Below are positions 13,518 to 25,970 of a stretch of DNA of 64,000 nucleotides, one piece after another. The notes under the pieces are model-generated. The model was not told where the DNA came from and did not search any database. It worked only from the letters and a program-made list of their open reading frames with translations. Position 1 is the stretch's first letter. Each line of letters opens with the position of its first letter. Made by a program: the position numbers and the translations under genes. Source of the DNA: Actinomycetes bacterium (GTDB taxonomy: Bacteria; Actinomycetota; Coriobacteriia; Anaerosomatales; Anaerosomataceae); contig JAJFTR010000036.1 in the NCBI GenBank assembly GCA_021372825.1, forward strand, positions 1 to 64,000, given 5' to 3'.

Positions 13518-14329
13518 TAGACCTGCACATACACACCGCGCGATGCCGTCATGGGCTCGGCACAGTCGCCGAGTACGTGGATGCCGCTCGGGAGGTGGGA
13601 GCCACGACCATCGCGTTCACGGAGCACCTGCCCTTGCCTGACGCGCTACTGCGGGCGGATCCGGCCGCCATGGGGTACGCGATGCCCGCCTCGGAGCTCC
13701 CCGCGTACGTGGACGAGGTCCTTCGGGCTCGCGAGGCGGCTGGCAGCACTGGTGGCCCGGAAGTACTGCTCGGCATCGAGGTGGACCTTCATCCGGGAAA
13801 TGAAGACCACGTGCGTACTCTTGTGGACTCGTACCCGTTCGATCTCGTGCTGGGCAGTGTGCACTACATCGACGGCTGGGCCTTCGACGACCCCAGCCGC
13901 ACCGAGGGCTACACGGGCTGGGACATCGCGAAGCTGTGGGAGCGGTATTTCGACGACGTGGTGCGTGCAGCTTCTACAGGGCTCGCCGATGTGATCGCGC
14001 ACGCCGACCTCATCAAGAAGTTCGGCTACGTCCCACACGGCGATCTTCGGCCGTTTTACGCGGAAGCCGCCGAGGCGTTCGCCGCTGCCGGGTGCGTGGT
14101 CGAGGTCAACACGGCGGGCCTGCGCAAACCTTGTGCGGAGCTGTATCCGTCTGATGCGTTCCTGCGGGAGCTGCGCAAGGCTGGCGTGCGGGTCACGGTG
14201 GGGTCGGATGCTCATGCGCCGTGTGATGTGTGTACGGGGTACTCGCAAGCGGTTGACGCCCTCAGGCGTGCGGGTTACGAGAGCATCGTGGTGCTGCGCG
14301 AACACGCGGCTGTGGAGGTGCCCCTGTGA
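13514..14329 (+). CDS. PHP-domain phosphatase, histidinol-phosphatase-like
   Basis: The 271-residue protein is a PHP-fold metal hydrolase: DLHIHTARC near the start, FTEHLPL, GIEVDL, VLGSVHYIDG, IAHADLIKKFG and GSDAHAP supply the metal-binding His/Asp/Glu set. The order and length fit HisJ/HisK histidinol-phosphatase, which acts late in histidine synthesis. No other his gene is near, so the substrate is not certain. It overlaps mnmA by four bases at the start and the Nif3-like gene by four at the end. Confidence 0.8.
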   Translation: MIDLHIHTARCRHGLGTVAEYVDAAREVGATTIAFTEHLPLPDALLRADPAAMGYAMPASELPAYVDEVLRAREAAGSTGGPEVLLGIEVDLHPGNEDHVRTLVDSYPFDLVLGSVHYIDGWAFDDPSRTEGYTGWDIAKLWERYFDDVVRAASTGLADVIAHADLIKKFGYVPHGDLRPFYAEAAEAFAAAGCVVEVNTAGLRKPCAELYPSDAFLRELRKAGVRVTVGSDAHAPCDVCTGYSQAVDALRRAGYESIVVLREHAAVEVPL

Positions 14330-15426
14330 CTTCGACGGTGACCGATCTTGTCGTGATGCTCGACCACGACTTCCCGATGGCGTGGGCTGAGCCTTGGGAC
14401 CGGGTGGGGCTTCGAGTGGGTGACGGGCGAGCATCGGTGCACGGAGTGTTCGTGACTCTCGACCCCACCGAGGAGGCGGTCGAGAAGACCGCCGCTGCAG
14501 GCGCGAACGTCCTGCTTACGCATCACCCTCCGTTTCTGGAGGCGCTTGATGAGGTGACTGGATCAAGCACCGCGGGGCGGGTCGTACTCAGCGCGGCGAG
14601 GCGGGGTGTGGCCATCGTGGCGATGCACACCAACCTCGATCGAGCACCGGCGGGCGGTGACGCTTTGGCCGAAGGTCTCGGCCTGAGCGTGCTGAGGCCG
14701 CTTGAAAGAAGTCTACAAGAAGTGGACATCGTGACGGTGTACGTGCCCGTCGAGGCCGAGGCTGCTGTTCGCCAGGAGATGATCGCCGCAGGCGCGGGTC
14801 GCATCGGACAGTATGAGGGGTGCGCCTTCGTGGGTCAGGGCAGTGGAGGTTTTTCGGCCCTGGAGGGCGCATCGCCGCGCGTCGGCGAAGCTGACGGCGC
14901 CGAGGTGGCCGAGAAGCGCGTGGAGATGATCGCGCCTACGGGACGGGGACTAGCTGTCGTGGATGCTGCGCGGGCCGTCCACCCGTACGAGGAGCCGGTC
15001 ATCACCGTTGCGCGTGGAGGCCTGAGCCGTGGTGTGGCTCGTCTCGGCCGATTGTGCAGCACCACACCGACGAGCCTCGCCGGTCTTGCCAGCGCCGTCA
15101 GCGAGCGCTTGAGCACGCCAGTCCGGGTGTGGGGTGACGAGGGCACGCGCGTGAGAACGGTGGCGGTGGCCAACGGGTCGGGCACTTCGCTCATCGGCGC
15201 CGCGCGTGAAGCAGGGGCCGATGCGCTCGTCACGGGTGAGGTACGTTATCATGACGCTCTGGAAGCCCTGGGCTCGGGGCTTGCGATCGTCGAGGCAGGG
15301 CATGACGCGACCGAATGGCCTCTGGTGAGGGTGCTGGCTCGGGCAGCACGCAGGGCAGTGGGCGATGGCGCCGTCATAGAAGATGAAGTGCATCTGGCGT
15401 GGTGGAGCCGAGGAAAGGGCGAGTGA
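14326..15426 (+). CDS. Nif3-like dinuclear metal center protein
   Basis: The protein belongs to the Nif3/YbgI/YqfO family, sometimes labelled GTP cyclohydrolase I type 2. It has PWDRVGLRVG near residue 23, LLTHHPPF as a metal-binding motif, MHTNLDRAPAGGDALAEGL, and late VTGEVRYHDAL and VEAGHDATEW. At 366 residues it carries the inserted middle domain of the longer YqfO form. The metal ligands seem complete, but the physiological reaction is not firmly known. It starts with GTG overlapping the previous stop and leads into the zinc-ribbon gene five bases later, a pairing often seen in bacteria. Confidence 0.88.
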   Translation: MTSTVTDLVVMLDHDFPMAWAEPWDRVGLRVGDGRASVHGVFVTLDPTEEAVEKTAAAGANVLLTHHPPFLEALDEVTGSSTAGRVVLSAARRGVAIVAMHTNLDRAPAGGDALAEGLGLSVLRPLERSLQEVDIVTVYVPVEAEAAVRQEMIAAGAGRIGQYEGCAFVGQGSGGFSALEGASPRVGEADGAEVAEKRVEMIAPTGRGLAVVDAARAVHPYEEPVITVARGGLSRGVARLGRLCSTTPTSLAGLASAVSERLSTPVRVWGDEGTRVRTVAVANGSGTSLIGAAREAGADALVTGEVRYHDALEALGSGLAIVEAGHDATEWPLVRVLARAARRAVGDGAVIEDEVHLAWWSRGKGE

Positions 15427-15430
15427 GTGC

Positions 15431-16153
15431 ATGGACCAGGGCAGGGCACTTCTTGAGCTCTCCGAGAAGGATCTGGAGATCACGCGCTTGACCAAGCAGC
15501 TTGAGGATCTTCCGGAGAAGACTGCCATCCTCGAGCTGCGGCATAAGATGAAGGACATCGAAGGCGTCGCCCAGAAGGCTCGCGAGTTCGTGGCGGACGC
15601 TGAGCGCGAGGTGAAGCGAGCAGAAGACGAGGTGGCCAGTCTGCGCGCGAAGATGGATTCCGAACAGGTCAAGATCTCTTCAGGACAGGTCGTGAACGTC
15701 AAGGAGTTGCAGTCGATGTCGCGCGAGATCGATTCGCTGCGGCGCCAGGTGGACAAGAAGGAGAACGACGTCTTGAAGGCGATGGAGCGGCTGGAGGCGG
15801 GCAGGACCCAGGCGAACAAGATCGCTGAGACACTCGAGAAGGCCGCTGCAAGGGAGAAGAGACTCATCGAGGAGTATCGCGCACGCGGAGGCGAGCTCCA
15901 GTCCCACATCGATACTCTGCGGCGTGAGCGTGCGCTCTTGGCCGCGCAGCTCGACGAGGAGCTTCTGAGCCGCTACGAGAAGACCCGCGAGGCCAAGCAC
16001 GGGATCGGCGTGGGTGTCTTGAGCGGCGGCATGTGCTCTGCGTGTCGCATCGACCTGCCTGCGGGCAAGGTGCAGGCGCTCGAGGAGGGTGGACCTATCG
16101 GCGAGTGCCCTAATTGTCACCGTCTACTAGTGGTCAGAGGACGTCAGAGGTGA
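15431..16153 (+). CDS. Coiled-coil protein with C4-type zinc ribbon
   Basis: Residues 1 to about 190 of this 240-residue protein are almost entirely charged coiled coil. A zinc ribbon follows with CSACRIDL and CPNCHRLL, giving two CxxC pairs. This matches the bacterial zf-RING_7/CdsZ-type family, usually found after a Nif3-like gene as here; its molecular role is poorly defined. ATG 15431 is chosen because a longer frame from 15383 would run inside the Nif3-like gene. The stop codon overlaps the RNase H-like gene. Confidence 0.85.
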   Translation: MDQGRALLELSEKDLEITRLTKQLEDLPEKTAILELRHKMKDIEGVAQKAREFVADAEREVKRAEDEVASLRAKMDSEQVKISSGQVVNVKELQSMSREIDSLRRQVDKKENDVLKAMERLEAGRTQANKIAETLEKAAAREKRLIEEYRARGGELQSHIDTLRRERALLAAQLDEELLSRYEKTREAKHGIGVGVLSGGMCSACRIDLPAGKVQALEEGGPIGECPNCHRLLVVRGRQR

Positions 16154-16602
16154 AGGCCACCCTTCGGACTGACGGGGGTGCGCGAGGCAACCCTGGACCC
16201 GCGGGGATCGGCGTTCTTCTGGTGGATGAGAACGGGCGAGAGATTGCGGCGGGAGGGCGGTTCGTGGGGACCGCCACGAACAACGTCGCAGAGTACATGG
16301 CGCTCATCACAGGCTTGGAGGCAGCGCGGGCGGCAGGTGTGACGGATCTGACCGTCTGCTGTGACAGCGAGCTGGTGGTCAAGCAGATGAGAGGCGAGTA
16401 CCGCGTGCGGAACGAAGCCTTGAAGCCCCTCTTCGCACGCGCATGTGACGTGAGCCGCGGGTTCGACAGTGTGCGGTTCGTGCACGTGAGACGTGCCGAG
16501 AACCAGGTTGCCGACCGGCTCGCTAATCAGGCGATGGACGCGCGACACGATGTGGGCTATGGACTCGGCGAATGTGATGAGCCACCGTCCACACTCTTCT
16601 AA
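16150..16602 (+). CDS. RNase HI-like protein
   Basis: The 150-residue product has an RNase H fold with all four acidic catalytic positions visible: D in RTDGGARGNPG, E in NNVAEYMALI, D in CCDSELVVKQM and D in NQVADRLAN. It should cut RNA in RNA:DNA hybrids or act on related substrates. It starts at GTG 16150, overlapping the previous stop codon in a GTGA junction. The basic substrate-handling loop of E. coli RNase HI seems to be absent, as in many short Gram-positive and archaeal-like RNase HI proteins. The gene could be called rnhA, but type assignment is uncertain. Confidence 0.87.
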   Translation: MKATLRTDGGARGNPGPAGIGVLLVDENGREIAAGGRFVGTATNNVAEYMALITGLEAARAAGVTDLTVCCDSELVVKQMRGEYRVRNEALKPLFARACDVSRGFDSVRFVHVRRAENQVADRLANQAMDARHDVGYGLGECDEPPSTLF

Positions 16603-16612
16603 GGAGACGAGT

Positions 16613-16993
16613 ATGTACGAGTTGAGTGTCAAGGGCCATTTCGACGCGGCTCATGCGCTCGTAGGGTATCCGGGCGAATGTCGCAACCTGCATGGTCACA
16701 CCTGGGACGTCGAGGTCACAGTAGCGGCGAACGAGCTCGACGACATCGACATCGTCTATGACTTCAAGAGCCTCAAGGCCGATCTCGCACGTGTTCTTGA
16801 GCCATACGATCACGTGTTCATCAACGAAGTCGCGCCGTTCGATGCGCTGAGTCCTACAGCCGAGAACCTCGCCAGGGTGCTGTACGAATCGCTTGAGAGG
16901 AATATCACTCAGGCGACGTCTGCACGCGTGCATCTCAAAGAGGTCACTGTGTGGGAGTCTCCGGTCGCTCGCCTCACGTATCGTCCAGAATGA
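16613..16993 (+). CDS. queD: 6-carboxy-5,6,7,8-tetrahydropterin synthase
   Basis: QueD turns dihydroneopterin triphosphate into 6-carboxytetrahydropterin, an early step to queuosine in tRNA. In the 126-residue protein the zinc histidines are H14 (FDAAHAL) and H27/H29 (NLHGHTW), and the catalytic cysteine is C23. The C-terminal part has SPTAENLARVLY and the VTVWES motif with the substrate-binding Glu. AAGGAG at 16601-16606 precedes ATG 16613. No other queuosine genes are in the window. Confidence 0.93.
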   Translation: MYELSVKGHFDAAHALVGYPGECRNLHGHTWDVEVTVAANELDDIDIVYDFKSLKADLARVLEPYDHVFINEVAPFDALSPTAENLARVLYESLERNITQATSARVHLKEVTVWESPVARLTYRPE

Positions 16994-17036
16994 TGTGAGG
17001 CGTCACGGACTGCGCGAGTCTTCCCTGGAGACGAAG

Positions 17037-17393
17037 ATGTCCCGAGAAACCTCGCCTGCGTGGCCTGTACTCCGCGGCTTCCCGTTTCTTACCTTTGCGG
17101 TCTCAAACGATGTGGCTGCTTTCGCGACCCTTCACGTTCAAGACCCCGCCGGCAGCTACTGGTACGCCGCCTTTCGAGACTCGCTCGGTCCGACCTCTCG
17201 GGACGTTGCTTACGTTAAAGCATGGTCTTGCGTACCGCAAGGGGGTTCGTGGCGAAATGGGCGAAGTTACGCCGAACGGTTGTATATGCGCGCTGAGCGG
17301 TTGAATATGAGCGCCGTCCGGCCCTGTTATGGGCCGAAAGGTGGACACAAACACCCGGAGGCGTGGTTAGTGCCTACTTCGTGGGACGTGTAG
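17037..17393 (+). CDS. Possible orphan protein, unknown
   Basis: A frame of 118 codons starts with ATG 17037, six bases after GGAG at 17027-17030, and ends with TAG. The predicted protein is rich in Trp, Tyr and Arg (for example GSYWYAAFRD) and resembles no family I know. Third-position GC is visibly lower than in the neighbouring genes, and codons such as TTA and AAA appear. It includes a seven-residue near repeat (RLYMRAE then RLNMSAV). It may be a recently acquired or decayed gene, or the region may be noncoding. No other feature is seen between 16994 and 17460. Confidence 0.3.
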   Translation: MSRETSPAWPVLRGFPFLTFAVSNDVAAFATLHVQDPAGSYWYAAFRDSLGPTSRDVAYVKAWSCVPQGGSWRNGRSYAERLYMRAERLNMSAVRPCYGPKGGHKHPEAWLVPTSWDV

Positions 17394-17460
17394 GCTGTGC
17401 TACGCTTCGCAGGAAGTCGCGGACCGCGACGGTTGCATGGGAGCAAGAAGGTGTGAGGCC

Positions 17461-18129
17461 ATGCCGAGCGAGACCATCGAGGAGTACCTCGAGACGATCT
17501 ACAAATTGAGCGAGCGTGGTGACGTGCGTCCTGCCCGGATCGCCGAGACCCTTGGCGTTTCAGGCCCCACAGTGACGGCGACGCTCGGCCGCCTCGCGAA
17601 CGCGGGCTACGTCACACGGCCAGCGGGGGGAGTGGCACTCACCGAATCTGGGCTCCAGGCGGCCTTGAGTATCGTCCGGCGGCATCGGCTCGCAGAACGC
17701 CTGCTCGTAGATGTCCTGGGGATGCCCTGGGAGGACGTTCATGAGGAGGCATGCCGCCTGGAGCATGCGTTGTCTGACAACGTGCAGGTGGCGCTCGAGC
17801 GGTACTTGGACAATCCGGGGGTGTGCCCGCATGGGCATCCGATACCGGCGGCTGATGGTACCGTGGCGAGATCCGAGGGACTCCCGTTGTCCGGGTACGA
17901 TCCTGGCGCCGAGGTCGTGATCGTAAGGATCGATGACGAAGACGAGGAATTGCTCGGATATCTGTCTTCGCTGGACTTGTTCCCTGGCACCCATGTCGTG
18001 GTCGCCGACGTCGCGCCGTTTGATGGTCCGCTCACCGTTGAGGTCGATGGTGTGCGTCATGCGCTCGGCCGGGGAGTGGCGGACAAGATAATCGTCGCAG
18101 AGCCGGCCCGGAGCCGGGAAAGCGAGTAA
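17461..18129 (+). CDS. DtxR/MntR-family metal-dependent transcriptional regulator
   Basis: The 222-residue protein begins SETIEEYLETIYKLSE and has a winged helix-turn-helix (RIAETLGVSGPTVTATLGRL), as in DtxR, IdeR and MntR. A dimerisation/metal-binding part follows (VRRHRLAERLLV, EACRLEHALSD, CPHGHPIP). The C-terminal 75 residues form an SH3/FeoA-like domain. It should repress genes when iron or manganese is bound. ATG 17461 has AGAAGG nine bases upstream; ATG 17437 is a weaker alternative. No metal transporter is adjacent, so the target genes are unknown. Confidence 0.9.
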   Translation: MPSETIEEYLETIYKLSERGDVRPARIAETLGVSGPTVTATLGRLANAGYVTRPAGGVALTESGLQAALSIVRRHRLAERLLVDVLGMPWEDVHEEACRLEHALSDNVQVALERYLDNPGVCPHGHPIPAADGTVARSEGLPLSGYDPGAEVVIVRIDDEDEELLGYLSSLDLFPGTHVVVADVAPFDGPLTVEVDGVRHALGRGVADKIIVAEPARSRESE

Positions 18130-18207
18130 CACACGCCGCGCCGCTTCGGCCCAGCGGTCGCTCGCACAATGGGCCCGTCGTCTTGTGCGAAGGTGTCAGA
18201 GTCGTCT

Positions 18208-18235
18208 TGTATATCGAACATATGTTCGATATAGT
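18208..18235 (+). promoter_or_regulatory. SOS promoter with LexA box
   Basis: A perfect 22-bp palindrome spans 18211-18232 with core TCGAACATATGTTCGA. This matches the Gram-positive/actinobacterial LexA site (GAAC, four bases, GTTC). It sits inside a likely promoter: -35 TTGTAT (18208-18213), a 16-base spacer, and -10 TATAGT (18230-18235). LexA bound there would block RNA polymerase. The next genes are a DUF6504 gene and a DnaE polymerase, fitting damage-induced expression. Confidence 0.88.
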
Positions 18236-18242
18236 GGACCCA

Positions 18243-18283
18243 CCGGGCGTGGGTCCCCCTGAAGGCTCCTGATCCACGCCCGG
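18243..18283 (+). repeat. Inverted repeat in the SOS leader
   Basis: CCGGGCGTGG (18243-18252) and CCACGCCCGG (18274-18283) form a perfect 10-bp stem with a 21-base loop. The hairpin starts almost exactly where transcription from the LexA promoter should begin, and ends 23 bases before the start codon. No T-run follows, so it is not a normal terminator. It may stabilise or tune the mRNA. Confidence 0.6.
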
Positions 18284-18306
18284 CCCTTCCCGGAAAGAAG
18301 TCTCCC

Positions 18307-18726
18307 ATGGGCCGGAACCGCGCTATCAAAGAGTTCGATCCCGCACGTCAAAAGGGTCAGCCCCTCGACCTTTTCACCGGTAGGGAGTCCCGCCTCCCCG
18401 TTGTTCTCGAGCTTCTCAAGAGTCCCTGGATCGTGCGTGGTTCACAAGTAGCGAAAAGCTCCACGGCAAGTGCGGGGAAACGACGCGAAGAAGCAGTCGA
18501 GGTCGTCTGGGACGGTCGCAAGGCTTCGCCGGTGGAGTTCGTGTGGCACGATCGGCGATACCGTGTCGACGCACTTGTTCAAACCTGGACGGTCGAGCGG
18601 AGCTGGTGGGACCTGCGCCGCCACCAGAGTAGGCGGTGCTTCCGGGTACTCGCTAGAGGAGGCCTGTACGATCTTGCGTACGACCGCCTGGCGGATGTGT
18701 GGTTGCTCACCGGCATCGTGGACTGA
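18307..18726 (+). CDS. DUF6504-type protein of the SOS cassette, with clamp-like motif
   Basis: The 139-residue product has a C-terminal domain (SPVEFVWHDRRYRVD, WWDLRRHQSRRCFRV, LYDLAYDRLADVWLL) resembling DUF6504, a small actinobacterial domain often encoded next to translesion polymerase genes. Its function is unknown. The N-terminal third is basic and probably flexible. Residues 18-23 read QPLDLF, close to the sliding-clamp-binding consensus QL(S/D)LF. It is the first gene after the LexA box, with GGAAAGAAG six bases before ATG 18307, and dnaE starts five bases after its stop. This suggests a polymerase-recruitment or adaptor role, which is inference. Confidence 0.75.
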   Translation: MGRNRAIKEFDPARQKGQPLDLFTGRESRLPVVLELLKSPWIVRGSQVAKSSTASAGKRREEAVEVVWDGRKASPVEFVWHDRRYRVDALVQTWTVERSWWDLRRHQSRRCFRVLARGGLYDLAYDRLADVWLLTGIVD

Positions 18727-18731
18727 CACAC

Positions 18732-21700
18732 ATGAGCGGTTTCGTGCACCTTCATGTCCATTCTCGCTTCAGCTTCATGGATGGCGCAGCGGACCTCGAC
18801 GCCCTCATCGGCCGGGCGGTCGAGCTTGGGATGCCGGCGCTCGCCCTCACCGACCATCAGGGGCTTTACGGTGCGATCCGCTTCTATCAAAAGGCGCGTG
18901 CCGCCGGTCTGAGACCCATCCTCGGCGCGGAAGTCGTGGTCGAGACCGCTGCTGTCCTTGGCGAAGAAGGAGACCTTCCACCACGGGAGCGGCTGCGTTT
19001 GCCCGCATCGGTAGGATTCGGACGGGCGGCGGGGCGGGGATATCACCTTACACTTCTCGTCAAGGACATCACTGGCTATCGCAACTTGTGTGGCCTGCTC
19101 TCCCGCGCGCACATCCGTAGCGCCGATGAGCCCTCGGTCGTGAGTCTTGCGGATCTGGCACGTCACTCCGAGGGGATCATCGGACTTTCCGGTTGTCCAT
19201 GTGGCGAGGTCGGAGCGGCGGTTCTTTCGGGGCTTGCATGGCGTGCTTCCGAAGCGCTCCAGCGTCTAGCGCGCTGTTTTGCACCGGGCGACTTTTATGT
19301 GGAACTGATGAATCTCCTCACACCGGATTCTCCCCGATACGTGAGCGGCCTCGTCGCTCTGGCAGAGCGGCTCGCCTTGCCCGTCGTCGCCACCAACGAC
19401 GTCCACTATGTCGAGCGGCGCGACTTCAGGTTGCACGACGTCTTGTCGGCGGCGGGCGCAGGTACTGGGCTGCCAGGCCCCTACTCCCGTGAGAACGCCG
19501 AGCTGTGGCTCAAGCCTGCGGGTGAGATGCGCAAGCTCTTCGCGGATCTTCCACAGGCATGCGACGCGACACTCGAGATCGCGTCGCGCTGCGACCTCGA
19601 TCTCGGTCTTGGAGGGTTCCACTTCCCGAGCGTGACGGTCCCAAAGGGGGAGACTCCCTACTCGGTGCTCGCCAAGCGGGCGTGGCAGGGTTTGGAGCGA
19701 CGCTACCGCCCTCTTACTCCGGCAGCCGTCGCCCGGCTCCAGCACGAGCTGGCGGTGATACAAGAGCTCGGGTTCGCCGAGTACTTCTTGGTGGTCGAAG
19801 ACATCGTGGATTTTGCGAAGTCGCGCGGTATCCGTTGCTCAGGACGGGGGAGCGCCGGAGACAGTATCGTCACATATCTTCTCGGCATCACTGACGCCGA
19901 TCCGATCGCATACGACCTGCTCTTCGAACGCTTCTTGAACCCTGAGCGACGTCAGATGCCCGACATCGACGTGGACTTCGATTCGCGCCGCCGCGATGAG
20001 GTCATCGAGTACATCTACCAGCACTTCGGCAACGACCATGTCGCGATGGTGGCGACGGTGCAGACGATGACGGCACGGGGCGCCGTACGAACGGTGGCCC
20101 GTGCCTTCGGGCTTTCTCCTCATGAGGTGAACACGCTCTCGCGTCATCTTCCCTGGGTCAGCGCACACCGGCTGCGTGAGGTGCTCGACACCTACCCCGA
20201 GTGCGTGAACCACCCGCTCAAGGACCGAGAACGTTACGGACTTCTGACCGAGCTCGCGCAGGAGCTCTCGGGATGTCCGATGCACCTGGGCACACACCTG
20301 GGCGGCTTCATCATCACACGCGAGCCGATCGACACGTGGATGCCTCTTCAGTGGGCGGCCAAAGGCGTGGTCGTCTCGCAGTACGACAAGGACGATATCG
20401 AGGCGCTCGGTCTGGTCAAGATGGACATCCTGGGTCTTCGGATGCATTCGGCCATCAGCGACGCGGTCGAGCTCGCACGCGCGCGTGTGGGCGCAGGGGC
20501 GGTACCCGAACCGTTCGATCTCACGCCCGACGATCCGCGTGTGTACGAACGCATCGCATCTGCCGATACGGTGGGGATGTTCCAGCTGGAGAGCAGCGGC
20601 CAGCGCAACCTGGCGATGCGCCTTTTGCAGCGCGACTTCTCCGACATCATCGCGGCGATCTCGCTCTTCCGCCCTGGCCCGCTCGAGGCCGAGATGATCA
20701 CGCCGTTCATCCGCCGGCGGCACGGTATCGAGGCGGTGAGCGTGCCGCACCCCTCGATGGCCGCGGCGTTGCACGATAGCTACGGCGTCATCCTCTACCA
20801 GGAGCAAGTGCTCCGTGTCGCGCAAGCGGTGGCGGGCTTCACGCTTGCCGAGGCCGACTCGCTCCGTCGTGCGATGACGAAAGACAGGTCGCGTGAAGAG
20901 ATGGAGGCCATCCATGGCCGTTTCGTGGATCGCGCAGTCGCTCTCGGGGTATCTCGTGACGCCGCCGAGGAGACCTTCCGACAGCTCCAGGGGTTCGCGG
21001 CCTATGGTTTCTGCAAAGCCCACGCAGCCTGTTTCGCGGTGGTGAGTTACGCGAGCGCGTGGCTCAAGTGCTACTACCCGGCCGAGTTCACCGCAGCCGT
21101 CCTCAACAACGAACCGATGGGGTTTTACACTCCTCGGCTTGTCGTGAACGACGCGCGCCGACATGGGATCGGCATCTTGCCGCCCCACGTGAACACATCC
21201 AAAGGTGCGTACACTGTCGAAGACGAGGGACGTTCGATCCGTGTCGGCCTTCGTGATGTCCATGAGATGACACAGCGTCTAATAGCGGCCATCGAGCGCG
21301 AGCAGGCCGTGCGTCCCTTCCGTGATTTAGCGGACTTCTTGCGTCGCACGCGTGCCGAAGCTCCCGCGGCAGAGAGTCTCATCAGAGTCGGAGCGCTTGA
21401 TGGTCTGGGGTCCACAGACGCCGGGCGGCCACCGACACGTGATGAGATGCTGGCCCTGCTCCCCGAGATGAAGGCGGTCATCGCACGTGAGGGGGTCGTA
21501 GGCGATGACGTGCTCGTGCTCGCACCTGCGCGAGCAAAGGTCCCCGAAGACCCGGCGCATGTGTCGGGCTGGACGATTGCGCGGAGGCTCTCATCGGAGC
21601 TCGAGCTCATCGGTCTTTCACTCACCTGCCATCCGCTCGAGTTGGCGCGCACAGACCTCGAGCGCCGAGGTGTGACGTGGGCGAAAGACCTGGCGCACTG

Positions 21701-22082
21701 TGAGGACCGGACACGCGTGCGTGTGGCGGGTGTGCGGGAACGGGCACAGACTCCACGGACCCGCTCGGGAAAACGGACGTGCTTCCTCACACTTGAGGAC
21801 CCGACGGGACTGCTCGATGTGGTGGTCTTCGAGGACGTGCTCGCGCGGGCAGGGGAGACCATCGTCACGCACCGTGCCTACCTCATCGAGGGAGTGCTTC
21901 AGAACAACCACGAGCGTGGCATCGCCATCATCGCGGACCGGGTGGAACCCTACATCGTGCGCACCGCGTCCGGTACTCCCGTGCGCCTGCGCCGTGGCGT
22001 GCCGAGCGGTCCGATGGGACCCGCGATCGGCGGCCTGGGAGCGCCTGAGGAGGAATCATGGACCGCTGCCTACTCAGAGTGA
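18732..22082 (+). CDS. dnaE: DNA polymerase III alpha subunit, DnaE-type (SOS-linked)
   Basis: The 1116-residue protein is a C-family DNA polymerase. An N-terminal PHP domain starts with HLHVHS at residues 6-11. The catalytic palm has PDIDVDFD at 410-417, and GRGSAGDS lies just before it. Helix-hairpin-helix and OB-fold regions follow (an OB strand with TCFLTLEDPTGLLDVVVF near the C-terminus). ATG 18732 gives the standard N-terminus. Length is slightly below usual replicative DnaE1 and near DnaE2. Position behind a LexA box with a DUF6504 gene suggests an error-prone or repair role, but sequence motifs such as FQLESSGQ look more DnaE-like than DnaE2-like. Its end overlaps convergent dinB by 13 bases. 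Confidence 0.88.
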   Translation: MSGFVHLHVHSRFSFMDGAADLDALIGRAVELGMPALALTDHQGLYGAIRFYQKARAAGLRPILGAEVVVETAAVLGEEGDLPPRERLRLPASVGFGRAAGRGYHLTLLVKDITGYRNLCGLLSRAHIRSADEPSVVSLADLARHSEGIIGLSGCPCGEVGAAVLSGLAWRASEALQRLARCFAPGDFYVELMNLLTPDSPRYVSGLVALAERLALPVVATNDVHYVERRDFRLHDVLSAAGAGTGLPGPYSRENAELWLKPAGEMRKLFADLPQACDATLEIASRCDLDLGLGGFHFPSVTVPKGETPYSVLAKRAWQGLERRYRPLTPAAVARLQHELAVIQELGFAEYFLVVEDIVDFAKSRGIRCSGRGSAGDSIVTYLLGITDADPIAYDLLFERFLNPERRQMPDIDVDFDSRRRDEVIEYIYQHFGNDHVAMVATVQTMTARGAVRTVARAFGLSPHEVNTLSRHLPWVSAHRLREVLDTYPECVNHPLKDRERYGLLTELAQELSGCPMHLGTHLGGFIITREPIDTWMPLQWAAKGVVVSQYDKDDIEALGLVKMDILGLRMHSAISDAVELARARVGAGAVPEPFDLTPDDPRVYERIASADTVGMFQLESSGQRNLAMRLLQRDFSDIIAAISLFRPGPLEAEMITPFIRRRHGIEAVSVPHPSMAAALHDSYGVILYQEQVLRVAQAVAGFTLAEADSLRRAMTKDRSREEMEAIHGRFVDRAVALGVSRDAAEETFRQLQGFAAYGFCKAHAACFAVVSYASAWLKCYYPAEFTAAVLNNEPMGFYTPRLVVNDARRHGIGILPPHVNTSKGAYTVEDEGRSIRVGLRDVHEMTQRLIAAIEREQAVRPFRDLADFLRRTRAEAPAAESLIRVGALDGLGSTDAGRPPTRDEMLALLPEMKAVIAREGVVGDDVLVLAPARAKVPEDPAHVSGWTIARRLSSELELIGLSLTCHPLELARTDLERRGVTWAKDLAHCEDRTRVRVAGVRERAQTPRTRSGKRTCFLTLEDPTGLLDVVVFEDVLARAGETIVTHRAYLIEGVLQNNHERGIAIIADRVEPYIVRTASGTPVRLRRGVPSGPMGPAIGGLGAPEEESWTAAYSE

Positions 22083-23296
22083 GGGCCGGGGTCCTCTCGG
22101 CGATCCATCATCTCGGCACCGCGTTTGACCGCCCCGGCTCCGAATCGCGCGCGAACCGCGTCCACTCCCCGTGCGAGTGCTGCCCGTCGTGAACGGACGT
22201 CGTCATCTGGCCCGCAAGCCGAGAACAGATCGAGTTGGACGCCGGAATCAGCGAATCCGCTCGCCCCAAAACCGAGCAGTCGCAAGCCAGTGCCCGGCGA
22301 CCACGCGGAGCGCAGAAGCTCGAGGGCGACGGGGAACATCTCCTCATCAAGGTCGGTCGGCATCTCGACGGTCCGTCTGACAGTAGGCGTCGAGAAGTCC
22401 GCATAGCGCAACTTCACAGTGAACGTGCGCGCGACGAGGTCCTTCTTCCGAAGCCGCGCCGCTACCCTGGCCACGAGGGACCGCAGAGCGTCCTCGACCT
22501 CGCTCCTCTCGCGGACGTCGGTCGAGAAGGTGTGTTCGTGGGATATCGACTTCACACCCCTTTCCACAAGAACAGGCCGCGGATCGATCCCACGCGCTCT
22601 GTCGACGAGGTCCGGACCCCATGATCCGATCAGCCGAAAGGCCGTCGCATGGTCGAGCGTTGCCAGCTGTCCGATAGTGCGGATGTGTGACTGAGCGAGC
22701 CTCGCGGCTGTCGATGCGCCGATACCGGGTAGCGCACGGACGCCGAGCGGTGCGAGGAACTCACGCTCGCGCCCGGGTTCCACCACCGTGATCCCATGCG
22801 GTTTGTCGTGATCGGAAGCGATCTTCGCGACCGTCTTGGACGTCGCCACTCCGATCGAACACGAAAGGGAGAGTTCGTCCACCTCGCGTTGTATCGCCTC
22901 GGCCAGGGATACAGGGTGCGGTCCTGATGCGCCCGGTGTGACATCCAGATACGCCTCGTCTATAGAGGTCGGCTCCACATCGGGTGTATAGCGGGCGAGT
23001 ATCTCTCTTACGGCGCCGGAGAGTTCCGCGTACCGGCCGAAGCGGGGACTCACCCACACTGCCTGAGGACAGAGCCGTGCGGCCTGCGAGGAGGGCATGG
23101 CCGACCTCACTCCGAAAGCCCGCGCCTCGTAAGAGCACGTGGAAACGACACCTCGGGAAGCGCGATCTCCTCCCACGATCACGGGCCTGCCGCGCCACTC
23201 GGGATGGTCGAGCTGTTCGACCGAGGCGAAGAAGGCATCCATATCCACATGCAGGATGCCGCGGCCGGCCCAGGGTGTGTCCCATCCTTGTTGCAT
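22070..23296 (-). CDS. dinB: DNA polymerase IV (Y-family translesion polymerase)
   Basis: The 408-residue DinB copies damaged DNA. The palm carries HVDMDAFFASVEQ and SIDEAYLDV, which supply the catalytic acidic residues. A steric/anchor region follows (VVSTCSYEARAFGVRSAMP). The thumb contains LPGIGASTAARL, and a little-finger domain precedes QLDLF at residues about 354-358, a near-perfect beta-clamp binding motif. The frame runs convergent to dnaE and overlaps its end by 13 bases. No LexA box is visible in the 50 bases before its start, so SOS control is not shown. Confidence 0.95.
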   Translation of the reverse strand: MQQGWDTPWAGRGILHVDMDAFFASVEQLDHPEWRGRPVIVGGDRASRGVVSTCSYEARAFGVRSAMPSSQAARLCPQAVWVSPRFGRYAELSGAVREILARYTPDVEPTSIDEAYLDVTPGASGPHPVSLAEAIQREVDELSLSCSIGVATSKTVAKIASDHDKPHGITVVEPGREREFLAPLGVRALPGIGASTAARLAQSHIRTIGQLATLDHATAFRLIGSWGPDLVDRARGIDPRPVLVERGVKSISHEHTFSTDVRERSEVEDALRSLVARVAARLRKKDLVARTFTVKLRYADFSTPTVRRTVEMPTDLDEEMFPVALELLRSAWSPGTGLRLLGFGASGFADSGVQLDLFSACGPDDDVRSRRAALARGVDAVRARFGAGAVKRGAEMMDRREDPGPHSE

Positions 23297-23359
23297 GGGG
23301 TCAGTCTAACGCGAGCTGTCGGCACTCGGCAGTAGACTGTGCAAGAAGAGAGGAGTGCC

Positions 23360-24226
23360 GTGTTGATAGGAGCGCATGTCGGGGTGGCCGATGGGTACCC
23401 CGCCGCAGTGGACTACGCCGCCTCGGTGGGCTGCGAGGCGCTACAGATGTTCGTGAAGAACCCGCGTCAGTGGCGCGGCGCCGTGCCCGACGCCGCAGCC
23501 ACAACGCTGTTCGCTAGCGCACGCCGCACACGCGGAATCGGGTATGTGGTCACGCACACGGCATACTTGATCAATCTGGGCTCGGAGGACCCGACCTTGT
23601 GGGAGCGCTCGTGGAGGGCGCTCGCCGACGAGTTGTGGCGTGCGAGTCTGTACGGCGCAGATGCCACGGTCACACACATCGGAACGAATCGTGGAGGGGA
23701 CCTGCGCCGAGGGGCTGCGCGAGTCTCTGAAGCGATCGCGCGAGCGCTCGACGTGGCAGCGTCCCCCGTGCGCTTACTGCTGGAGAACACCGCCGGAGCA
23801 GGGACGACGTTCGGAAGCACGCCGGAGGAGATAGGCGCCGTACTGCGTGAAGCAGGGCCCCTTCACCGCGCGCGCCTCGGTGTATGCCTGGACACATGTC
23901 ACGCGCACGCGGCGGGGTACGATCTGTCGATCCCCTCGGGATGGGATGACCTGCTGGACGGGTTCGAGCGGCACGCCGACCCCGCGCGAATCGAAGTCGT
24001 TCATGCGAACGACTCGGTCTTCCCGTGCGGGAGCAGGCATGATCGCCACGCGTGGGTAGGGGAAGGCACCATCGGCCGCCAGGGATTCGCGAGGCTGTTC
24101 GCCGAGGACCGCCTTGCAGACGCTACCGTCATCGTGGAAATGCCCGGCGAGGTGCCCGAGAAGGACCTCGTGAACATCAGCGCGCTGAGGCAGCTGCGTG
24201 AAGCTTGCGGGGCACCCGGCTTCTGA
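23360..24226 (+). CDS. nfo: Endonuclease IV, AP endonuclease
   Basis: Nfo cuts DNA at abasic sites in base excision repair. The zinc ligands are visible in order: HTAYLINL, VTHIGT, LLENTAG, CLDTCHAHAAG, VVHANDS, DRHAWVGEG and VIVEMPG. The TIM-barrel length of 288 residues is normal. GTG 23360 follows AGGAG closely; TTG 23363 is an equally possible start. It runs divergently from dinB, 63 bases away. Its last 50 bases overlap the end of the convergent exonuclease gene. Confidence 0.93.
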   Translation: MLIGAHVGVADGYPAAVDYAASVGCEALQMFVKNPRQWRGAVPDAAATTLFASARRTRGIGYVVTHTAYLINLGSEDPTLWERSWRALADELWRASLYGADATVTHIGTNRGGDLRRGAARVSEAIARALDVAASPVRLLLENTAGAGTTFGSTPEEIGAVLREAGPLHRARLGVCLDTCHAHAAGYDLSIPSGWDDLLDGFERHADPARIEVVHANDSVFPCGSRHDRHAWVGEGTIGRQGFARLFAEDRLADATVIVEMPGEVPEKDLVNISALRQLREACGAPGF

Positions 24227-25871
24227 CCCGCACGTGGGCGAGCACCTGGTGCACGAGGTCTTCGGGTGCGCCCGTGAAGGGCACCTCAAGGGGCATGTGC
24301 TGGCGCCGGAACGTATCGACGATGAACAGCTCCTTCAAGTCCTCGTGTGACATATCGGAGGGGTCCTCAGCCATGCGTTCATCGGAATACACCCTTGTGG
24401 CAGCGCGTCGTAGTGCCACTTCGAAATCCCCTGCGGTCACGCTCTGGCGGTTCGACCGCAATGTCGAAGCAACCTTGCCGTGACGGATGAGATGGACGAC
24501 AACAGCGTCGTCGCGTGTCTCGATGATCGCCACCCCAGGCTCTGCTGTCGCATTCCGCACGACGCTCAAGCTCGACATCGTGCGGTCCAGTGCGCGCACC
24601 GCGTCGCGGTGTATGATCGCCTCTTCGTACTTGAGATCCATGGCCGCCTGCTCACGCAAGGTCTGCAGCGCTGCACGTAGACGGGCGCTGTCGTTGTCGA
24701 AAACCTCTAGAGCAGCCTGGACGCGGCGCCGATATTCCGCGGGAGTGATGGTTCCCAGACATGGGCTCGGACATGTGCCGTTCGTCCGATGTTCGCAGGG
24801 CGCAAGATTCGTTCCCGTGATGCGGCGTGCGCAGCGCCGCAACCCGAAACGCTCCTTCATCGCGGCTACAAGGGTTTCCGCGGCCCACACGTTGGTGAGC
24901 GGCCCTATGGCGATCCCTGTCTTGGGCCGCGTGGTCATGACAGTGAGAGACGGATAGGCTGACCTGTCATCGACACGCAGATACGCGATGGCGTGGCCCC
25001 GTTGGTGGTCCTTGTTGTACTTGGGATGGTATCGGGTGATCATTCGGCTCTCGGTGAGCATCGCATCGAGGTCCGATGCACACACGATGTGCTGGACACA
25101 GGCGGCCTCGGCGGCCGGATGTGGGTGCTCAAGCTCGCAAGGTCCGTAGAAGAACCCTCGGACCCGCATCCGGAGGTCCTTGGCTCGACCGATGTAGATG
25201 ACGCGCCCAGATGCATCCCTGAAGATGTACACACCGGGTGCGTCGGGCAGGTGAGTCGCAAGGACCAGTTTGCTGGCGAGCACGCCTTGTCTGGCAAGGC
25301 CGCAGAAGCGCGACGCGTCCTCGGCAGTCATCAGACCTCGTGTGTTGAGCTCGGGCAGCATCCTCTGGAGTATCTGGGCAGTCGCCAGGGCATCGGCGGG
25401 TGCGCGATGATTGGGAACAGCATCCACACCGTAATAAGAGGCGAGCACGCGCAGATTGTGACGGTCCAGCTCGGGGTGGAGCCGACGGGCAAGAGCGAGA
25501 GTGTCGAGCACAGGACGAGGAAAAGGGACACCCCACGCGCGCTCTGCCTCGAAGTCGAGGAAACCCATGTCGAAGCGATGGTTGTGAGCGACAAGGACCG
25601 CCCTGCCGGTGAAATCACGGAAATCCTTGATGACGTGCTCGATCGGGGGCGCGTCAGCAACCATTTCATCATCGATACCGGTAAGGTCACGTATGGAATG
25701 CGGGATCGGCTCGGGGGGCCTTACCAGGGTCTGGAAGACGTCTTCGATGGCACCCGCACGGACCAGGACAGCGCCGATCTCGATGATGCCGCTGCTTCCG
25801 GGGCGGCACCCTGTCGTCTCTATGTCGACGGCGACGAACTCGCCATCTGTGAGCGAAGTGGGACCGAGCAT
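24177..25871 (-). CDS. DEDDh exonuclease / GIY-YIG (UvrC-like) fusion nuclease
   Basis: The 564-residue protein starts with a DnaQ/PolC-like exonuclease domain: AVDIETTG with D16 and E18, AHNHRFDMGFLDFE, and NHRAPADALA, the full DEDDh set. Around residues 225-330 a GIY-YIG domain follows (PGVYIFRD, GRVIYIGRAKDLRMRVRGFF). A UVR-like motif (MDLKYEEAIIHRD) comes next. The terminal RNase H part of UvrC is not apparent. This architecture is known in Actinobacteria (DEDD exonuclease proteins with UvrC/Cho-like domains). ATG at 25871 has GAAGGA just upstream; a frame 33 codons longer is less likely. A role in nucleotide excision repair is inferred. Confidence 0.88.
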   Translation of the reverse strand: MLGPTSLTDGEFVAVDIETTGCRPGSSGIIEIGAVLVRAGAIEDVFQTLVRPPEPIPHSIRDLTGIDDEMVADAPPIEHVIKDFRDFTGRAVLVAHNHRFDMGFLDFEAERAWGVPFPRPVLDTLALARRLHPELDRHNLRVLASYYGVDAVPNHRAPADALATAQILQRMLPELNTRGLMTAEDASRFCGLARQGVLASKLVLATHLPDAPGVYIFRDASGRVIYIGRAKDLRMRVRGFFYGPCELEHPHPAAEAACVQHIVCASDLDAMLTESRMITRYHPKYNKDHQRGHAIAYLRVDDRSAYPSLTVMTTRPKTGIAIGPLTNVWAAETLVAAMKERFGLRRCARRITGTNLAPCEHRTNGTCPSPCLGTITPAEYRRRVQAALEVFDNDSARLRAALQTLREQAAMDLKYEEAIIHRDAVRALDRTMSSLSVVRNATAEPGVAIIETRDDAVVVHLIRHGKVASTLRSNRQSVTAGDFEVALRRAATRVYSDERMAEDPSDMSHEDLKELFIVDTFRRQHMPLEVPFTGAPEDLVHQVLAHVRVRSRVPRKLHAAASAR

Positions 25872-25941
25872 CGTCCTTCGTCTCGCACGTGTGATAACAC
25901 GCACAATACTAGCACTGTGCCGGCTGTTCGGGGGATGTGTG

Positions 25942-25970
25942 TTGTATGTCACGGAATGCGACCGTAGCAT
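25942..25970 (+). promoter_or_regulatory. Candidate promoter of the acidic four-cysteine gene
   Basis: TTGTAT (25942-25947), a 17-base spacer and TAGCAT (25965-25970) form a plausible primary-sigma promoter. Transcription would begin near 25977, 49 bases before the ATG at 26026. The prediction is from motif and spacing only. Confidence 0.5.

Follow-up and report, generated by a model that had tools for sequence, protein, structure and literature searches.

We examined a 64-kb window (the whole stretch of DNA analysed) from a genome of the order Anaerosomatales. At positions 18307..18726 on the forward strand it encodes a small DUF6504 protein of 139 residues, identified by its match to PF20114 and by an aligned start codon. 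The gene for its partner, the polymerase DnaE2 (18732..22082, forward strand), begins 5 nt past the stop codon of the small gene. An SOS (LexA) box, TCGAACATATGTTCGA (18214..18229, no strand assigned), lies 77 bp upstream of the small gene's start codon; it is a perfect match to the actinobacterial box and the only one in the window. Convergent with the pair is dinB (22070..23296, reverse strand), the genome's single Y-family gene. The wider order NIF3, RNase HI, 6-pyruvoyl-tetrahydropterin-synthase-like, DtxR, ImuB-C (the name justified below for the DUF6504 protein), DnaE2, convergent DinB, endonuclease IV, exonuclease-UvrC-like (14326-25970) is widely kept in Anaerosomatales.

The ImuB-C protein is present in 60 of 248 genomes of the class Coriobacteriia, every one of them within Anaerosomatales, and ImuB-C followed by DnaE2 is the layout throughout the loci of this order where the contig is long enough. 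Its start codon aligns in all orthologues with the N-terminus on the contig, and the N-terminal tail is therefore real coding sequence. Of 57 orthologous ImuB-C genes, 56 have an SOS box with at most two mismatches upstream, compared with 22 of 285 control windows; none with fewer than two mismatches was found upstream of DinB in 36 orthologues. ImuB-C and DnaE2 thus make up the damage-induced unit, in agreement with the original prediction of a damage-induced small protein encoded together with a polymerase.

That prediction had also placed a DinB with the clamp motif QLDLF about four kilobases from the DUF6504 gene, and the motif lies there, at residues 354-358 (22223-22237), about 3.9 kb away. 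The motif is followed by a tail resembling the N-terminus of RecA (RecA-NT), RRAALARGVDAVRARFGAGAVKRGAE (22112-22189), which matches a profile of RecA N-termini with a score of 23.0 and is conserved in Anaerosomatales; in nearly all loci of the order the convergent DinB carries a clamp motif, and it has the RecA-NT tail too. In the window's genome RecA is the sole RecA-family match and DinB the sole Y-family gene. All 14 Anaerosomatales genomes tested contain exactly one Y-family gene and no ImuB; in the loci this gene is DinB.

The DUF6504 domain and known mutasomes

The conserved C-terminal domain foreseen for the small protein comprises residues 59-137 (18481..18717, forward strand), which match PF20114 with an E-value of 1e-8 and 35.8 bits (curated cut-off 24.2). 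An HHalign comparison of residues 59-139 of the family with the C-terminal domain of ImuB proteins encoded in DnaE2-linked loci of proteobacterial plasmids gave 92% probability (E 5.5e-7, 77 columns). PF20114 matches the C-terminus of one such plasmid ImuB, and the record of another is titled DUF6504 family protein. Together these matches identify DUF6504, by sequence comparison, as ImuB-C, the domain at the C-terminus of ImuB that Aravind et al., 2013 defined (PMC3765255); ImuB-C is the name of the family in the literature. AlphaFold2 modelled the domain with a pLDDT of about 95 over residues 61-90 and placed seven strands, mostly at high confidence, in residues 62-138. A fold search with the model against the PDB gave nothing with an E-value up to 0.001 and a sequence search of the PDB gave no relative, so the domain is all-beta without a close PDB relative. 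The inactive Y-family polymerase core of ImuB is absent from the 139-residue protein.

Standalone ImuB-C paired with DnaE2 has already been published for Actinobacteria (PMC6511836; PMC12926913). The window locus conforms genetically to this DnaE2-[ImuB-C] mutasome, with a standalone ImuB-C, a second, DnaE2-type polymerase and no ImuA or ImuB, and it resembles the published systems in domain, neighbouring polymerase, SOS context, lack of ImuA or ImuB, and phylum. In mycobacteria the DnaE2 mutasome is recruited to the clamp through ImuB, and mutation of the ImuB clamp motif abolishes mutasome function (PMC10421592). That motif is QLPLW; in M. smegmatis ImuB it occupies residues 352-356, followed by a RecA-NT at 360-387 and ImuB-C at 422-525 (PMC11791113). 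The likeness to our protein lies in a clamp motif followed by ImuB-C and in the proposed link between DnaE2 and the clamp (PMC11791113; PMC10421592); the tailed ImuB-C differs in having no Y-family polymerase core, and a RecA-NT in it is unsupported by profile comparison.

The original prediction knew of no description of such an adaptor. The domain (PMC3765255), its pairing with DnaE2 (PMC6511836; PMC12926913) and clamp recruitment via ImuB (PMC10421592) are all published, and what survives of the statement concerns the tail. In the papers on standalone ImuB-C that we consulted, the main text says nothing of a clamp-like tail at the N-terminus or of a tail-linked loss of the DnaE2 motif, and a clamp-motif tail on standalone ImuB-C with a matching loss in DnaE2 appears to be undescribed.

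The N-terminal tail and its clamp-like motif

AlphaFold2 gave low confidence for residues 1-25, which are thus predicted to be disordered, as expected of the flexible N-terminus proposed earlier, and a helix of modest confidence at residues 26-37. In the orthologue alignment the first conserved island is GRNRAIKEF (residues 2-10; 18310..18336, forward strand), with I7 invariant and G2, N4 and K8/R8 nearly so; a similar EIHRYP occurs in Rubrobacterales. Further along is a helix-PW segment, RLPVVLELLKSPWIVRGS (residues 29-46; 18391..18444, forward strand), in which W41 is invariant and P40, L36, L37, R44 and S46 are kept in at least 90% of orthologues. This segment is found wherever the tail occurs, and its conservation equals or exceeds that of the clamp-like motif.

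The clamp-like motif itself, QPLDLF, is encoded at 18358..18375 (forward strand) and occupies residues 18-23, as originally read; it was recognized by its conservation, a matrix scan and its counterpart in Rubrobacterales. The original comparison with QL(S/D)LF holds for the LF positions; the Q lies one residue further upstream, and the pentapeptide in register is PLDLF. Across 56 Anaerosomatales orthologues, the alignment of dnaE-linked homologues that had been proposed as a check, the motif is conserved. L22 is present in 56/56 and position 23 is F in 50 and L in 6, so the hydrophobic positions 4 and 5 of a clamp motif are filled; position 21 is acidic in 53/56 (47 D, 6 E), position 20 is mostly L, M, I or V, and G17 is kept in 54/56. 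Q18 is present in only 35/56, and at clamp-motif position 1 the 56 orthologues have P, S, T or A in place of Gln. The register Q-x-hydrophobic-[S/D]-L-F is that of E. coli delta (69-QAMSLF-74), which has been seen in the clamp pocket (PMC2705854); delta is an unrelated protein, and its motif is internal to a folded clamp loader subunit.

The composition-based chance of Qx[LMIV][DS]LF within the 25 tail positions is about 3.5e-5, and of a looser form 2.7e-4. Taken as a sequence match in one protein, the motif is weak evidence, because SLDLF in the neighbouring DtxR scores equally. This SLDLF, in the FeoA domain of the DtxR-like regulator (17968-17982), is a chance string that is not conserved, and it warns against calling motifs from single sequences. 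We built a position matrix from the clamp motifs of the DinB proteins in these loci and scanned it over 2,787 five-column blocks from eight gene alignments. Over motif positions 2-5 the ImuB-C tail block ranked first of the 2,787 with 11.3 bits (the DinB motif itself scored 10.8); with position 1 added it ranked third. The unconserved DtxR string dropped out of the scan. By HHalign the tail matched the DinB C-terminus only modestly above null, with 4 of 91 null windows scoring as high, and its match to the clamp-to-RecA-NT region of ImuB was not above null.

Loss of the DnaE2 clamp motif and spread of the tail

The genome has two DnaE genes. DnaE1 carries QVSMF between its HhH and OB domains; in the alignment with this DnaE1, DnaE2 has GDDVLVLAP at the corresponding site (21501..21527, forward strand). 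The pattern Q-hydrophobic-x-hydrophobic-x-hydrophobic was found at this site in 0 of 50 Anaerosomatales DnaE2. Among the 41 DnaE2 beside tail-less ImuB-C for which the region is complete, counted by hand, 30 have the strict clamp motif and 10 more have near variants (for example QTALDL and QLTLAD), or 40/41 by the loose count. The sole exception is locus L161, where a tail-less ImuB-C adjoins a DnaE2 with the clamp-motif region deleted, and DinB lies on the opposite strand; in the DnaE2 tree L161 falls into none of the main groups. The motifs QLPLx and QLPLxL have been described for some actinobacterial DnaE2, and PLPLF, which has no Q, and xLPLF are clamp motifs of proteobacterial DnaE2 (PMC3919608). 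The actinobacterial motifs represent the function that the tail would replace, and QLxLxL strings occur in DnaE2 beside tail-less ImuB-C; they differ from the tail in sitting in the polymerase, not in its small partner, and they are absent from Anaerosomatales DnaE2.

Most standalone ImuB-C proteins examined in other Actinomycetota begin within a few residues of the domain and have no tail. A homologous tail is found in Rubrobacterales, with EEPLF or EPLW at the motif site and then the same helix-W-RAS segment (20 segments, extracted by a pattern that itself required L followed by F, W, L, Y or M); the PLW form resembles the QLPLW of mycobacterial ImuB (PMC11791113). In one further family (f27) the tail motif is DPVLF. 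The DnaE2 of Rubrobacterales has a conserved QPEIPL-like string at the clamp-motif site, which may be either degenerate or functional. All tail-bearing loci fall in one clade of the DnaE2 tree (support 0.98). Gain of the tail and loss of the DnaE2 motif therefore count as one evolutionary event and not as a replicated association.

Searches for Y-family genes found none in seven genomes, one of family f27 (G250) and six of Rubrobacteraceae (G286, G368, G465, G258, G272 and G298), most of which are more than 94% complete. A tailed ImuB-C lies beside DnaE2 in G250, G286, G368 and G465 (loci L125, L138, L145 and L327), and one is also present in G298. We considered a clean complementarity between the tail and a Y-family polymerase; it fails, since Anaerosomatales have the tail plus a DinB with both clamp and RecA-NT motifs.

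A candidate clamp tether for DnaE2

Among the sources of damage-induced mutation in bacteria, DnaE2 is a major one. To our knowledge, how it gets to the replication fork has been established only in species that contain ImuB. From the sequence comparisons above, we think that the ImuB-C protein is probably a subunit of a DnaE2 mutasome whose tail tethers DnaE2 to the DnaN clamp. DNA damage would cause LexA to release the ImuB-C-DnaE2 operon; the ImuB-C beta domain would bind DnaE2, as suggested by models in the literature that place ImuB-C on the PHP domain; and the disordered tail would place Leu20, Leu22 and Phe23 in the hydrophobic pocket of DnaN, in the register of delta QAMSLF. The tail would thereby tether a DnaE2 that has no clamp motif of its own and so take on the role that the ImuB clamp motif has in mycobacteria. 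The original proposal of an adaptor that brings DnaE to the clamp thus gains partial support from the conserved motif, the predicted flexibility of the tail, the SOS box and the loss of the motif from DnaE2 (DnaE1 keeping its QVSMF).

A DnaE2 without a clamp motif, together with a conserved motif in the ImuB-C tail, suggests a transfer of the hook from DnaE2 to the small protein. Whether clamp binding passed from DnaE2 (or ImuB) to the 139-residue ImuB-C, so that the SOS-induced mutasome consists of two proteins and, in Rubrobacteraceae and one more lineage, occurs in genomes that have no Y-family protein, we rate as an even call. Several observations count against the tether: the canonical Q is absent from position 1, with the upstream Q18 in 35/56 only, the tail-bearing loci form one clade, and Rubrobacterales DnaE2 retain the QPEIPL-like string. 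The DinB of Anaerosomatales, with its own clamp motif, could tether DnaE2 instead. If the tail of ImuB-C is the tether, it would explain how DnaE2 functions where a genome lacks ImuA and ImuB and, in some cases, every Y-family polymerase, and it would give standalone ImuB-C its first concrete role. The clamp motif would then have shifted between subunits of one complex, and recruitment in such a two-protein system could be dissected with one or two substitutions.

The main rival to clamp tethering, which we consider unlikely, is a single surface, made up of the LF/LW and the helix-PW segment, that docks on DnaE2 (or DinB), the likeness to a clamp motif being convergence on a hydrophobic plug. 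Clamp binding leaves unexplained the helix-PW segment, with its strong conservation and its presence with every tail, and the N-terminal arms of UmuD' and YqjX do insert into their polymerases (PMC12926913). However, position by position the tail motif tolerates the residues that the clamp motif of DinB tolerates (L/M, D/E, L, F/L), LF is exchanged for LW in a way that recalls the QLPLW of ImuB, and the partner DnaE2 in Anaerosomatales is without a clamp motif.

We regard it as quite improbable that residues 29-46 are RecA-NT-like and bind RecA as the RecA-NT of ImuB binds ImuA', the protein being the C-terminal half of ImuB without the polymerase core. The clamp motif, the helix and strand, and ImuB-C follow one another as they do in M. 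smegmatis ImuB, and the spacing V33-x3-L37-x4-I42 is that of its V374-L378-V383; against this, the score in the profile comparison with RecA N-termini was 7.2, which is lower than the null mean, 9.0 (the DinB tail gave 23.0), and the helix-end glycine is missing, with PW conserved there instead. A RecA-NT reading of the longer stretch 24-52 was attractive by its spacing and found no support from the profile comparison. A chance origin of the motif, within a tail that either drifts or is conserved on other grounds, is very unlikely: LDLF strings do arise nearby, as in DtxR, and the Q is not conserved, but L22 is invariant and position 23 is F or L within a predicted disordered tail, and LF/LW is kept in another class whereas the DtxR string is unconserved.

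On the Rubrobacter marinus plasmid NZ_CP045122.1 (L164, 2546-7398), lexA is divergent from a tailed ImuB-C, annotated as a hypothetical protein, and DnaE2, and this lexA/tailed ImuB-C/DnaE2 module may be mobile.
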